Shown piece by piece: positions 5,051 through 18,150 of a DNA stretch of 39,641 nucleotides. The first letter of the stretch is position 1; each line of letters starts with the position of its first letter. The notes below the pieces were generated by a model. It was not told the DNA's origin. It did not search any database and worked only from the letters and a program-made list of their open reading frames with translations. The stretch covers positions 1-39,641 of IMG/VR virus record IMGVR_UViG_3300017767_000036. The stretch is one strand, 5' to 3'. The stretch is from a virus. Both the position numbers and the translations under genes were made by a program.

Positions 5051-7063
5051 TTAAGGTTGCATTGTTAAAAAGTTGTCTTCTTCACTTTTTGTAGAGTTAA
5101 ATAGTTCCGGTTGATCTGCCATTATTCGTTCAATAGGGCGTGCTGAACCGGGATCAGCTACAGGAGAAGCCATAGACTGTCCTGCCGCCACTACGTCGCT
5201 AGGGGCTATTGGTAAATACTCTGTGGCCCCCGCTATTGAACCACCCACATCAGATACTGAGTCGGGTAATCCTAATTTTTTGAGTTTTTCAGTAACATTT
5301 GCTTTGGTTTCTGTTGCAGCCAGTGTAGCCACCCCGAAACCAATAGGTGGTGCTACAACTTTTATTACAGGTTTAGAGGCTTTAGCTAACTTAAACCAGT
5401 CGATTTTGAATCCAGCCTTAGTCATTGCATCTTTGGTATCTTGCTGCAAATCATTTAAAGTCATTGGGCCAGTTTCAGGCTCTGGTATTGCAGGGGCTGG
5501 CATCTTTGCTGTTTCAACTGGTGCTTCAAAAAAGGACTCGTATCCCGGCGTTGCTCTGCCAACTCTTTGAGATGGTGGCGGCACGGCATCAGTTACGTTA
5601 AATCCTGCTTCAGAAGCTGCCTCTGCAAAATAGGTAGACACAACGTTGGCATTACGTGCATCCGGTCCCTTTGGGTCTAAATCCCCCGGATACTCTTGTG
5701 CGTACCCTGTTACTTCTCCTGTAGAACCTTCAGCAGCAGCCTTTAAGCTTCTACCCTGTAGATAGGCAATTCGTTCAAAGGATATACCACTGCGTTGTGC
5801 AACTTTAGTATGCAGGTTTCTAAGAAGTGAAGCCCCCCTTTTTCCGGGGACTTCTCCAGATTTACCCTCTGGTGCTAAACTATCAAATGTCTTATTTGTT
5901 GCAGAGTCAAATATAAGTCCGGGTATTTTTACCTGCTTAAGAATATTAGTCATATCCGTAGAAGAAACAGGCTTACCGTTTGGCTTTACAAAGAAGTAGC
6001 CATCAGATACTTTACCATCCTGAAGTCTAGCCTGAAGAATTGCATCCCCAATGTCATTCAGTGGAACGTTAACTCTACGTCCCTTTGCTCCCTTTGTTTC
6101 TGCTGAGATGTAAATAGCGCGGGTATCAGGGTAGTATGAGTTAGTTTTTAATTGTGCTACTGCGTTGGGTCGCAAACCATTCTGCATGTTAAAAAGCACA
6201 GCCATAGCTGCAGCTTCTTGTTTTGGGTCTTTTGATATTTCTGCAACTTGCCTAAAAAAGTTTTGCATAGTTGCGGCATCTGTCTTGATAGATACTTCTG
6301 ATACAGCCTTTGCTGGTTCTTTGATACCAAATATTTTTACATTTTTTGGTGTATCAGGTGTTTCCTCTGGTAGAAATGCTAGTATATTGCTGTTAGCTGG
6401 AAGTTCTCTAGCTATACGCAAACCTACTTGACGCAGGGCTTGCATCGACTGTTTCGGATTGTCAACTTCTAAGTCTAAATTTTTAAATGTTTTGGAGAGA
6501 GTTGTTTCCCCAGTTTCATCAGGAGTGAATATACTTATGGCTGATCCGGGCTGGTCAGCAACATCGCCCAGATACTTTGCAACCATGTTACCATACGCTT
6601 TTGCGCCTACCTTTAGTTTCTGCTCAGTCGCATACAGTTCTGCAACTTCACGGGCGGTAGCTGTTTCAGGATTTAATTTTGCCATGCTTTTTGGATCGTT
6701 TGCGGGGGGTTCAACCATATATCCTTGCGCTTGCAAGTCGAGTGTTGTTCCCAGTTTTTTATTTACTTTATCAAAATCTGTTTTATCAATTAGTCCGGGG
6801 TACTTTTCTTCTATAACTTGTGACAACGTAAAAGCGTTGTTTTCAGTGTCAGCAAGAGGAGACATATCTTTGATAAGCTCTCTCATATGTGCAAAAGTAA
6901 ATTTACGAGGTATTTTTCGCCCATTAAATATTTCAATAAGTCGTTTGTTCTCTGTACCTACAGTTTTATACTTTTGCATCTCCTTTAATTCTTGCCCAAT
7001 TAGATCAGCCATTTGAGAAATTTGACTACGCTGTTCTGGAAACTTAATAGGTTCATCTGCCAT
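5051..7063 (-). CDS. 670-residue protein with a divergent tyrosine-recombinase-like domain
   Basis: Residues about 285-460 follow the layout of a tyrosine recombinase catalytic domain. NGLRPNAVAQLK holds the first Arg (R298) and is followed by a beta hairpin with ETKGAKGRRVNVPL (Lys and VPL). Next come SLLRNLHTKVAQRSGISFERIAYL with the second Arg (R415), then LQGRS (R438) where LGHS is usual, and TGYAQ (Y454). The His of the HxxR box is Ser and the third-box His is Arg, so activity is uncertain. A long N-terminal part (about 280 residues) and a C-terminal part with a hydrophobic segment near 575-600 are not seen in ordinary integrases. The C-terminus ends EEDNFLTMQP, a motif shared with the protein at 32686-33249. 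The gene lies between large terminase and portal, not in a lysogeny module, so a virion-associated role is as likely as integration. Confidence 0.6.
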   Translation of the reverse strand: MADEPIKFPEQRSQISQMADLIGQELKEMQKYKTVGTENKRLIEIFNGRKIPRKFTFAHMRELIKDMSPLADTENNAFTLSQVIEEKYPGLIDKTDFDKVNKKLGTTLDLQAQGYMVEPPANDPKSMAKLNPETATAREVAELYATEQKLKVGAKAYGNMVAKYLGDVADQPGSAISIFTPDETGETTLSKTFKNLDLEVDNPKQSMQALRQVGLRIARELPANSNILAFLPEETPDTPKNVKIFGIKEPAKAVSEVSIKTDAATMQNFFRQVAEISKDPKQEAAAMAVLFNMQNGLRPNAVAQLKTNSYYPDTRAIYISAETKGAKGRRVNVPLNDIGDAILQARLQDGKVSDGYFFVKPNGKPVSSTDMTNILKQVKIPGLIFDSATNKTFDSLAPEGKSGEVPGKRGASLLRNLHTKVAQRSGISFERIAYLQGRSLKAAAEGSTGEVTGYAQEYPGDLDPKGPDARNANVVSTYFAEAASEAGFNVTDAVPPPSQRVGRATPGYESFFEAPVETAKMPAPAIPEPETGPMTLNDLQQDTKDAMTKAGFKIDWFKLAKASKPVIKVVAPPIGFGVATLAATETKANVTEKLKKLGLPDSVSDVGGSIAGATEYLPIAPSDVVAAGQSMASPVADPGSARPIERIMADQPELFNSTKSEEDNFLTMQP

Positions 7064-10020: not shown

Positions 10021-10036
10021 GCTAGATTTATCTAGC
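10021..10036. promoter_or_regulatory. Perfect inverted repeat at the start of the late transcript
   Basis: GCTAGATTTATCTAGC is a perfect palindrome with 7-bp arms. It begins about 5 bases downstream of the expected start site of the leftward promoter at 10048-10076. It could be a repressor operator or a stem-loop at the 5' end of the late mRNA that protects it from decay. Confidence 0.6.
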
Positions 10037-10047
10037 CCCACAACCCA

Positions 10048-10076
10048 AGTATACCGATTATATACTTGCAAGTCAA
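10048..10076 (-). promoter_or_regulatory. Strong sigma70-type leftward promoter of the late block
   Basis: On the minus strand TTGACT (10071-10076) and TATACT (10048-10053) are separated by exactly 17 bases. An A/T-rich stretch just upstream of the -35 box could act as an UP element. The expected start is near 10041, giving a leader of about 95 bases before ATG 9947. It is placed to drive the packaging and portal genes. Confidence 0.75.
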
Positions 10077-10114: not shown

Positions 10115-10143
10115 TTGACAAAACCGCATATCGACTGTACAAT
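10115..10143 (+). promoter_or_regulatory. Strong sigma70-type rightward promoter with no gene behind it
   Basis: TTGACA (10115-10120) and TACAAT (10138-10143) are separated by exactly 17 bases on the plus strand. The promoter is back to back with the leftward late promoter, with 38 bp between the -35 boxes. No rightward gene lies before 15191, and two terminator-like hairpins follow within about 110 bases. Confidence 0.7.
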
Positions 10144-10149
10144 GGGACT

Positions 10150-10211
10150 AAGTCCTGCCGGGAAATACACCCCCACCACCCCCCTTCGCCTGTGCGTAGG
10201 GGGTTTCTTTT
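10150..10211 (+). ncRNA. Candidate small RNA of about 60 bases
   Basis: The transcript expected from the rightward promoter would start near 10150 and reach a strong intrinsic terminator. That terminator is CCCCCT (10180-10185) paired with AGGGGG (10198-10203), a T-T mismatch, three more inner pairs CGC/GCG and a CTGT loop, followed by TTTCTTTT. Near the 5' end, GGAC-TAA-GTCC could form a small hairpin. No convincing ORF with a ribosome site lies in it. The call is a prediction from promoter, structure and terminator only. Confidence 0.5.
10180..10211 (+). terminator. Rightward intrinsic terminator 1
   Basis: A GC-rich stem of 6+3 bp with one T-T mismatch and a 4-base loop spans 10180-10203, then TTTCTTTT. 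The T-run is on the plus strand only, so it acts on transcripts from the 10115-10143 promoter. Confidence 0.65.
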
Positions 10212-10226
10212 GGGGAACCCCGCTAT

Positions 10227-10262
10227 ACTCCCATAGGGGTACCCCCAAAGGAGTTGTTTTTT
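10227..10262 (+). terminator. Rightward terminator-like hairpin 2, tandem to the first
   Basis: ACTCC (10227-10231) pairs with GGAGT (10250-10254) around an inner GGGGTACCCC palindrome, and the plus strand then reads TGTTTTTT. Part of the sequence can instead form an alternative 8-bp stem (10217-10240). It looks like a back-up terminator behind the first. Confidence 0.45.
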
Positions 10263-10658: not shown

Positions 10659-10907
10659 TTATTCGTCGCTTGTTTCCGGCTTGTAGGCTAACTGGAGCCG
10701 CGCCACAGTGCGCGGGGAATCAGTGCAGAACGTATAATGATCGAAGCCATAACCGCGCAATAATTCCTTTAAGCCTTTAATCTGATATTCAAGGGCTTCA
10801 ACCTGCCCCAATATAATAGCCTGTTCGCTGCTGGTCATAACAACAAGCTTCTTTGCCTCGTCATCGTTAAAGGTTTCGGTGTTGATGTTAAGTGTTGATT
10901 TAATCAT
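10659..10907 (-). CDS. Hypothetical protein, last gene of the leftward early block
   Basis: This 82-residue product begins MIKSTLNINTETFNDDEAKK. It has an acidic N-terminal part, a long central helix (EQAIILGQVEALEYQIKGLK) and one Cys. The start has AAGGA 9 bases upstream in the leader AGGAAACAAACCA, which recurs before other genes of this block. A perfect 7-bp hairpin (10932-10955) precedes it, and a terminator follows at 10601-10634. No family recognised. Confidence 0.65.
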   Translation of the reverse strand: MIKSTLNINTETFNDDEAKKLVVMTSSEQAIILGQVEALEYQIKGLKELLRGYGFDHYTFCTDSPRTVARLQLAYKPETSDE

Positions 10908-15190: not shown

Positions 15191-16003
15191 ATGGACATGA
15201 AATCACCATCTTGGTTACAAGGCTACGTAGAGTCACTGGACATTCAGCCGTTGGGTCGTTACCGATCCGACTGTCCTGTATGTGCCAGAAAGAATACGTT
15301 TAGCGTAAGTGATGACGGACTGCAACGACTGTGGTATTGTTTCCACGCTGATTGCAATGTGTCGGGCCGCACGGGCGTTACCCTAACTAAAGACTTTGCG
15401 AAACACGCCCTCTCTAGGTCACAGGCTAATGCGCCTGTTCCCCGTACTAATAACACTTACGAATTGCCGGATACTTTTGTTAGTCTTTCCCGTAACTTAG
15501 ATGCAGAGCTTTATGTTCGATCTGTATATGCGTATGATGCGTACTTGTCAGGTCGTGCAGACATTCGTTATGATTTCAAAAGAAACCGTGTCGTCTTTAT
15601 TGTCAAGGATGGCAAAAAGGTTGTTGATGCGGTAGGTAGGTCAATGGATGGAAGGAGTCCAAAATGGTATCGATATGGAAATAGTAAATGCCCTTTTGTT
15701 TCTGGCAATGGAGAACGTGGTGCCTGTGTTGTGGAAGATGCTGCTAGTGCTTGCAGTGTTAGCGGTGTTGTCGCGGGGGTGGCCATCTTAGGTACAAATC
15801 TGCTAGATGATCACATACAACATTTATCCAAATACCCCAGAGTATTTGTTGCACTCGACAAAGACGCAACTGACAAGGCGGTTGACATGGTAAAAACCCT
15901 GTGTAGAATAGTTCCAACCAAACTCATGGTATTATCCCGTGACTTTAAGAACATGACAAAGGACGAAAGAGATGACTACCTACGAAACTACATCGATAGA
16001 TAA
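15191..16003 (+). CDS. DNA primase (zinc finger and Toprim)
   Basis: This 270-residue primase makes RNA primers at the replication fork. An N-terminal zinc finger has CPVC near residues 28-31 and YCFHADC near 53-59, followed by Gly-rich sequence. The Toprim fold is shown by CVVEDAASA (Glu near 182) and VALDKDAT (DxD near 223). In T7 the primase and helicase are one protein; here the helicase is a separate overlapping gene. No ribosome site precedes ATG 15191, and the promoter start is expected near ATG 15197, so ATG 15197 may be the true start. It heads the rightward operon. Confidence 0.88.
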   Translation: MDMKSPSWLQGYVESLDIQPLGRYRSDCPVCARKNTFSVSDDGLQRLWYCFHADCNVSGRTGVTLTKDFAKHALSRSQANAPVPRTNNTYELPDTFVSLSRNLDAELYVRSVYAYDAYLSGRADIRYDFKRNRVVFIVKDGKKVVDAVGRSMDGRSPKWYRYGNSKCPFVSGNGERGACVVEDAASACSVSGVVAGVAILGTNLLDDHIQHLSKYPRVFVALDKDATDKAVDMVKTLCRIVPTKLMVLSRDFKNMTKDERDDYLRNYIDR

Positions 16004-17569: not shown

Positions 17570-18150
17570 ACGTACTGACCTTCGATGTAGAAACAACCCA
17601 CATACAAAAAGAAACGGGTGGGACAACAGCACTGCCATACTTTGGTAATCGTCTTGTGTCTATTGGGTACAAGCGTTTGTCGTCGCCTCACGTACACTAC
17701 CACTGCTACTATCATGCAGACAGGGAACCCCACGACTTTGCACCGGAGTTGTTTCAAGAAGCACTCAACGAGGCTGATACAATTGTGGGACACAACATAA
17801 AGTTTGATCTATCATGGATCAGGGAGTGTGGTTTCTTTTTTAACGGAGAAGTATATGATACGATGGTTGCGGAGTATATTCTGGCGAAAGCCCAGCGTTG
17901 GCCTCTGGGACTTGCTGCTGTTGCAGAAAAGTATGACGTTACCCAAAAGGAGAAAGACCTTGTTTCGCCGTACCTCAAGGACGGCAAGACCTTCTACGAC
18001 ATACCGTGGGAGATAGTAGAAGAGTACGGAAAAGCTGACGTACTCGCCACAGAAGAGGTGGCCTTGAAACAGCTTGATGCCTTTGGCACTACATTTAAGG
18101 AGTTATGTTTTGGAACGGACTTTGTTACCGACGTTGAGGCTGTCGCTTGA
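17566..18150 (+). CDS. DNA polymerase 3'-5' exonuclease domain, separate frame
   Basis: This 194-residue product is the DnaQ-like proofreading domain that in family A phage polymerases is the N-terminal part of one protein. Exo I is FDVETT (D7, E9), Exo II is VGHNIKFD (N76, D80) and Exo III is YGKADV (Y154, D158). The frame ends at TGA 18148-18150, while the polymerase continues in the +1 frame. ATG 17566 overlaps the HNH stop and has GGAG 7 bases upstream. The last 17 or so residues look unrelated to the family and are probably read past the point where the frames should join. Confidence 0.85.
   Translation: MNVLTFDVETTHIQKETGGTTALPYFGNRLVSIGYKRLSSPHVHYHCYYHADREPHDFAPELFQEALNEADTIVGHNIKFDLSWIRECGFFFNGEVYDTMVAEYILAKAQRWPLGLAAVAEKYDVTQKEKDLVSPYLKDGKTFYDIPWEIVEEYGKADVLATEEVALKQLDAFGTTFKELCFGTDFVTDVEAVA

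Follow-up and report, generated by a model that had tools for sequence, protein, structure and literature searches.

Why does a near-consensus promoter persist in a phage genome at a place where its strand carries no operon for 5 kb? The question is raised by a rightward promoter, hereafter P+, in the record of an HMO-2011-type podovirus (the whole 39.6-kb stretch analysed, hereafter the window). HMO-2011-type phages have been described as dominant among marine viruses and distributed worldwide (PMC9038755), and the words promoter, terminator and RNA polymerase are absent from the text of that paper. The genes for TerL, the portal and TerS lie on the minus strand of the window, and from 15191 onwards the plus strand encodes a primase, a DnaB-type helicase, a DNA polymerase and a ribonucleotide reductase. 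A stretch of about 700 bases that has no conserved gene separates the first leftward late genes (9947) from the end of the leftward early block (10659), where a conserved terminator-like site is located on the minus strand (10609‒10629). The orphan setting claimed for P+ in the initial annotation holds, as all genes at 10659‒15146 are leftward and the nearest rightward gene beyond P+ is at 15191.

A 670-aa protein with a weak integrase match is encoded at 5051‒7063, within the late operon between TerL and the portal, unlike the integrase of HMO-2011 and CRP-2, which is located in the early region. The window DNA polymerase is encoded in two overlapping ORFs (exonuclease, 17566‒18150; polymerase, 18074‒19651), representing either a split gene or a frameshift, whereas HMO-2011 has one gene.

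P+ is conserved in position among relatives

P+ (10115‒10143, plus strand) consists of the -35 element TTGACA (10115‒10120), a 17-bp spacer and the -10 element TACAAT (10138‒10143). Its sequence, TTGACA AAACCGCATATCGACTG TACAAT, matches the consensus at 11 of 12 positions and has its sole exact copy here in the window. By count, P+ is unexceptional, with 27 promoter-like sites found in the window versus 29.7 expected. We take P+ as real because its position is conserved in relatives, not because of these counts. The loci of relatives were retrieved by terminase homology only (TerL protein similarity), and P+ played no part in their selection.

Among close relatives, anchored on TerS, 41 of 42 distinct loci have a promoter matching at least 10 of 12 consensus positions within one shared 100-bp zone, 326‒428 nt from the TerS start, compared with 3.4 in shuffles. 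The -35 and -10 elements and the spacer length are retained in these 41 loci, while the spacer sequence is mostly variable. Two TerL-anchored sets of distant relatives gave a near-consensus promoter in 86 of 87 distinct loci, mostly a perfect TTGACA-16/17-TATAAT; a few of the 86 lie elsewhere and probably do not represent P+. Among isolates, the SAR11 phages HTVC115P, HTVC103P and HTVC033P carry P+ (with TAGACA as the -35 element in HTVC033P), and a pattern search did not find it in the Roseobacter/SAR116 isolates HMO-2011, CRP-2, CRP-3 and CRP-207. With its -35 and -10 hexamers, a spacing within 16‒18 bp and a conserved position, P+ has the features of a sigma70 promoter, and its conservation in close and distant loci confirms the near-consensus promoter reported earlier (TTGACA-17-TACAAT in the window).

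A divergent late promoter pairs with P+

A leftward late promoter, TTGACT-17-TATACT, is located at 10048‒10076 on the minus strand, with 38 bp between its -35 element and that of P+. Within 120 bp upstream of P+, an opposite-strand promoter of at least 10/12 was found in 49 of 51 window-clade loci, 50 of 51 distant loci and all 10 HTVC115P-type loci (null, 0.5‒3). The gap between the two -35 elements is 7‒73 bp in the distant set, 13‒16 bp in the HTVC115P-type loci and 9‒84 bp in the window clade. Pure steric exclusion between the two promoters is disfavored by the gaps of more than 60 bp found in some window-clade loci. P+ and the late promoter thus form a conserved back-to-back sigma70 pair where the early and late regions of HMO-2011-type marine phages meet.

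P+ is probably an orphaned early promoter

The wider family offers an explanation for the position of P+. The first ORF downstream of P+ is rightward in 44 of 53 distant loci, and in most distant loci no other promoter above 10/12 intervenes; HTVC115P and the locus L102 have additional promoter-like sites ahead of the early genes. These early promoters share with the P+ of the window their position, the -35 and -10 elements, the leader core and the divergent late promoter. They differ in what follows, since rightward early genes are found in most distant relatives, usually after about 450‒1000 nt, whereas no rightward gene follows P+ in the window clade. The early gene DUF932 is opposite to TerL in all eight distant records in which it was found, and is co-oriented with TerL in the window and two clade members (TerL strand read from contig ranges).

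Most simply, the early block as a whole, or at a minimum its DUF932 part, would have been inverted in the ancestor of the window's clade, the presumed direction of the change. Rightward early genes in the wider family, together with the inverted DUF932 part in the window clade, would make P+ an orphaned early promoter. That P+ is a homologue of the wider family's early promoter is the best explanation and rather probable, mainly as regards what the element is. The early promoters of HMO-2011-type phages, previously undescribed, are inferred here from sequence comparison. The orphan state is specific to the window's clade, a point missed in the initial annotation. The intact state of P+ in over 40 distinct sequences suggests that it retains a function other than driving early genes. 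The orphaned P+ represents a natural experiment, an operon lost and its promoter retained, and allows a direct test for a function independent of early gene expression.

Terminators and the predicted RNA

P+ is followed by two plus-strand intrinsic terminators. Terminator 1 (10180‒10211) has its stem at 10180‒10203 and its T-run at 10204‒10211, as originally described. The second hairpin, previously assigned to 10227‒10262, required revision: terminator 2 (10205‒10262) folds best with a stem at 10205‒10253 and a T-run at 10254‒10262, and overlaps terminator 1 because its hairpin starts at 10205 and takes in the first T-run. A simple scanner reported neither hairpin; with one mismatch permitted, hairpin 1 scored 22.8.

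A strong intrinsic terminator (score of at least 14) is present in 35 of 61 distinct pooled units, compared with 2.2 in shuffles, where the pool comprises the window-clade units and twelve pattern-found or isolate distant units. Most of these terminators end at about +54 to +110, and four (L014, L021, L025 and L065) end at +165 to +196; close lineages without a good terminator include L022, L030 and L069. Across the wider family, a terminator was found in 14 of 61 TerL-anchored units (1.4 expected), including nearly all HTVC115P-type phages, in which it lies between P+ and the early genes, near +82 in HTVC115P itself; most other units are without one. The predicted terminator is common but lineage-dependent, unlike the promoter.

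With a promoter, a G+C-rich hairpin followed by a T-run and no conserved ORF, the locus has the sequence characteristics of a terminated small non-coding RNA, predicted on the plus strand at 10150‒10211 with its start placed from promoter spacing. The product of P+ in the window is probably a terminated non-coding RNA of about 55‒62 nt, or of about 105‒113 nt via terminator 2, and we infer that this RNA is actually made. No conserved peptide starting within the RNA was found in relatives. An antisense gene was rejected, since the 78-aa minus-strand ORF at 10032‒10268 over the P+ site is broken in relatives. Searching Rfam 15 gave no covariance-model match at the gathering score, only sub-threshold ones with E >1. 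At the sequence level, the conserved promoter, the terminators in 35 of 61 units and the structured start lend good support to the earlier proposal that an orphan promoter here yields a short structured RNA.

A predicted leader structure, with covarying hairpin arms in the wider family

The +1 position was set at 10150, the canonical distance from the -10 element. Around it, a dyad, GGGAC-TAA-GTCCT (10144‒10156), spans -6 to +7. Its arms covary strongly, within the window clade only, giving variants such as AGGTC-CAA-GACCT, GGGC-ATAG-GCCC and GGGT-ATA-ACCC, among others. Since its 5' arm precedes the canonical start, the dyad may be a DNA element, e.g., an operator, rather than RNA.

Immediately downstream lies the conserved leader core CCGGGAAATA (10158‒10167, plus strand). 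In most of the wider family, a counterpart of its CCGGG segment makes up the 3' arm of a 5' hairpin, and a C[CA]GG core is present in the leader of 64 of 87 distant loci versus 5.6 expected from coding sequence. The wider-family hairpin begins at about +1, as in AUGUA-G-CCC-ACC-GGG-UACAU, GACCCC-ACC-GGGGUC and UAUAUGGCCC-AGC-GGGUCAUAUA.

Folding from +1, the summed energy of 50 distinct distant leaders is -313, compared with -148 ± 13 in shuffles, and that of the window-clade RNA is -241 versus -142 ± 13; identical rows were removed from these shuffles, and both nulls ignore the kinship among the remaining sequences. The arms of the distant hairpins covary, with an energy of -212 with their own 3' arms and -148 ± 10 when the 3' arms were permuted between sequences. 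No consensus structure emerged when the wide leaders were aligned with MAFFT and folded with RNAalifold, probably owing to register shifts, and the alignment-free and arm-permutation tests were therefore used in its place; this negative result is a caveat on the structural evidence. The leader contains one covarying hairpin in the wider family and a weak second pairing in the window clade. Conservation of the promoter and hairpins in relatives, chosen beforehand as the point on which the initial annotation could fail, was found, as was covariation of the leader arms.

Conserved DNA and repeats downstream of P+

A block of conserved DNA at the early/late junction, hereafter block C (CATATCGATAAC ... 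ATTGC ... GGGGGGGTGGGGTGGCCC), spans 10266‒10350. It carries a G- or C-rich tract, and its central part comes in two alternative forms that can differ even among close relatives (L012/L013 and L031/L055). A packaging site tied to terS was rejected, since the block C counterparts in HMO-2011 (~53550‒53640) and CRP-2 (reverse complement of L083; ~570‒630) are at the junction, with terS kilobases away. Contig ends, judged by eye, showed no pile-up at block C. Pairing of the C-rich part of the RNA with a G-rich block C was also rejected, as block C switches type within the pairs L012/L013, L031/L055 and L036/L038 while their leaders hardly differ.

CATATCGATAAC (10266‒10277) and its reverse complement GTTATCGATATG (~15183‒15194) flank the leftward early block. 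An invertible block bounded by CATATCGATAAC was rejected: the exact pair is absent in six relatives, one of which has two imperfect, oppositely oriented copies. Direct repeats of about 15‒18 bp that are lineage-specific (e.g., CTACACGTCGGTTTCATA and GGTTCGCAAA) surround the terminator between P+ and block C, at window-clade loci that include L055, L051, L019, L164 and L138. The repeats are possible binding sites of a protein, and a comparison of repeat type with TerS and with the HTH protein favors neither decisively.

Possible roles of P+

We propose that host RNA polymerase would start near 10150 from P+ and that the transcript would end near 10211, at the first intrinsic terminator, or near 10262, at the second. 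In most distant relatives, P+ faces the early genes to its right, and in the window clade that block appears inverted at least in part. P+, whose -35 element is often 7‒41 bp from the late -35 element, may compete with or couple to the late promoter early in infection, while the terminators would prevent its transcription from running antisense into the inverted early block. Such a local role beside the late promoter is the preferred explanation for the retention of P+, suggested tentatively. The explanation as a whole, namely an orphaned early promoter in a back-to-back pair that makes a short RNA, seems a reasonably good bet, a judgment that applies mainly to what the element is. The promoter pair, the leader and block C provide concrete targets for the early/late transcription layout, and perhaps replication, in HMO-2011-type phages.

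The RNA could instead act in trans, its structured 5' end and CCGGG-AAAYA core binding a host or phage RNA or protein and the terminator making it stand-alone. Consistent with this role, the promoter, the leader core and the terminator are all conserved while no gene follows them. However, the RNA body varies freely between close relatives, no Rfam family matches, and complementary sites in the window are not in excess (6 versus 7.8 expected). Pairing with the late leader (TCCCG/CGGGA) was rejected, since relatives with CAGGG as the core show no compensating change. The freely varying body and the lack of a pairing partner among those sought speak against base-pairing in trans, and we regard a trans-acting RNA as somewhat unlikely. 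Similarly, a new conserved phage RNA family, in which early-gene inversion turned an early leader into a short terminated RNA that regulates in trans or at a nearby origin, is conceivable and somewhat unlikely.

Transcription from P+ might activate or prime a candidate origin at block C, as lambda pR/pO do by ori-lambda. Block C lies 100‒200 bp downstream of P+ and is conserved in P+-bearing phages, its HMO-2011 and CRP-2 counterparts are far from terS, and the direct repeats flank the terminator. This origin-linked role is nonetheless improbable, because in most close relatives the terminator halts P+ transcription ahead of block C, and block C also occurs in HMO-2011 and CRP-2, which lack a consensus P+. 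GC skew, which tracks gene direction, was rejected as evidence for an origin.

The initial annotation had also likened the locus to the lambda pR' arrangement. In an antitermination switch like lambda pR' or HK022 put, the leader would be released by a phage factor or by the RNA itself, which would fit a promoter-proximal structured leader followed by terminators and the HTVC115P-type terminator between P+ and the early genes. This reading fared poorly and is very improbable: no antiterminator gene was found (the best match, PF03589 with an E value of 0.044, is under its cut-off), and the Q-like PHROG matches at 18074‒19651 map to the zinc-finger portion of the DNA polymerase. Moreover, read-through in the window would enter genes on the opposite strand, many relatives keep P+ without a terminator, and HTVC115P and L102 have the further promoter-like sites noted above. 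Finally, P+ can hardly be a non-functional relic of a former early promoter, despite having no gene after it in the window clade, given the retained hexamers and spacer length amid a mostly variable spacer and the covarying start-site dyad.

Comparison with known systems

The lambda pO promoter makes the 77-nt OOP RNA (PMC3985674, PMC12197685). Like P+, pO is a strong promoter that lies in a control region and faces against the neighboring genes, and it makes a short terminated RNA, as predicted for P+; by analogy it appears to be the closest architecture to the P+ element. OOP is antisense to cII and adjoins a proven origin, whereas the predicted P+ RNA has no conserved gene opposite and block C is only a candidate origin.

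Lambda pR' leads into the late operon, needs Q and gives the 6S leader RNA. It resembles P+ in its promoter, short leader and intrinsic terminator, and differs in having an operon, since P+ has none on its strand within 5 kb, and the window yielded no Q-like gene. HK022 putL forms two stem-loops in about 70 nt (PMC9378689). Like putL, the P+ leader is predicted to be structured, at or close to the 5' end of an early transcript, but the window RNA has only a weak pairing between its start and the terminator. Our literature search, limited to openly available papers, found no description of the P+ element, in agreement with the earlier claim that none is described in HMO-2011-type phages; nor did Rfam contain one.

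The pattern scan also recovered promoters of T4-like cyanophages with a similar leader, which were set apart (L088, L093, L116, L143, L168, L181, L184 and L204). The cyanophage promoter, TTGACA-17-TAGA[CA]T with the leader ..TTGTCC.GG..A.A., faces against its flanking genes, and its neighbors in L116 resemble gp47, gp55 and a UvsW-like helicase.
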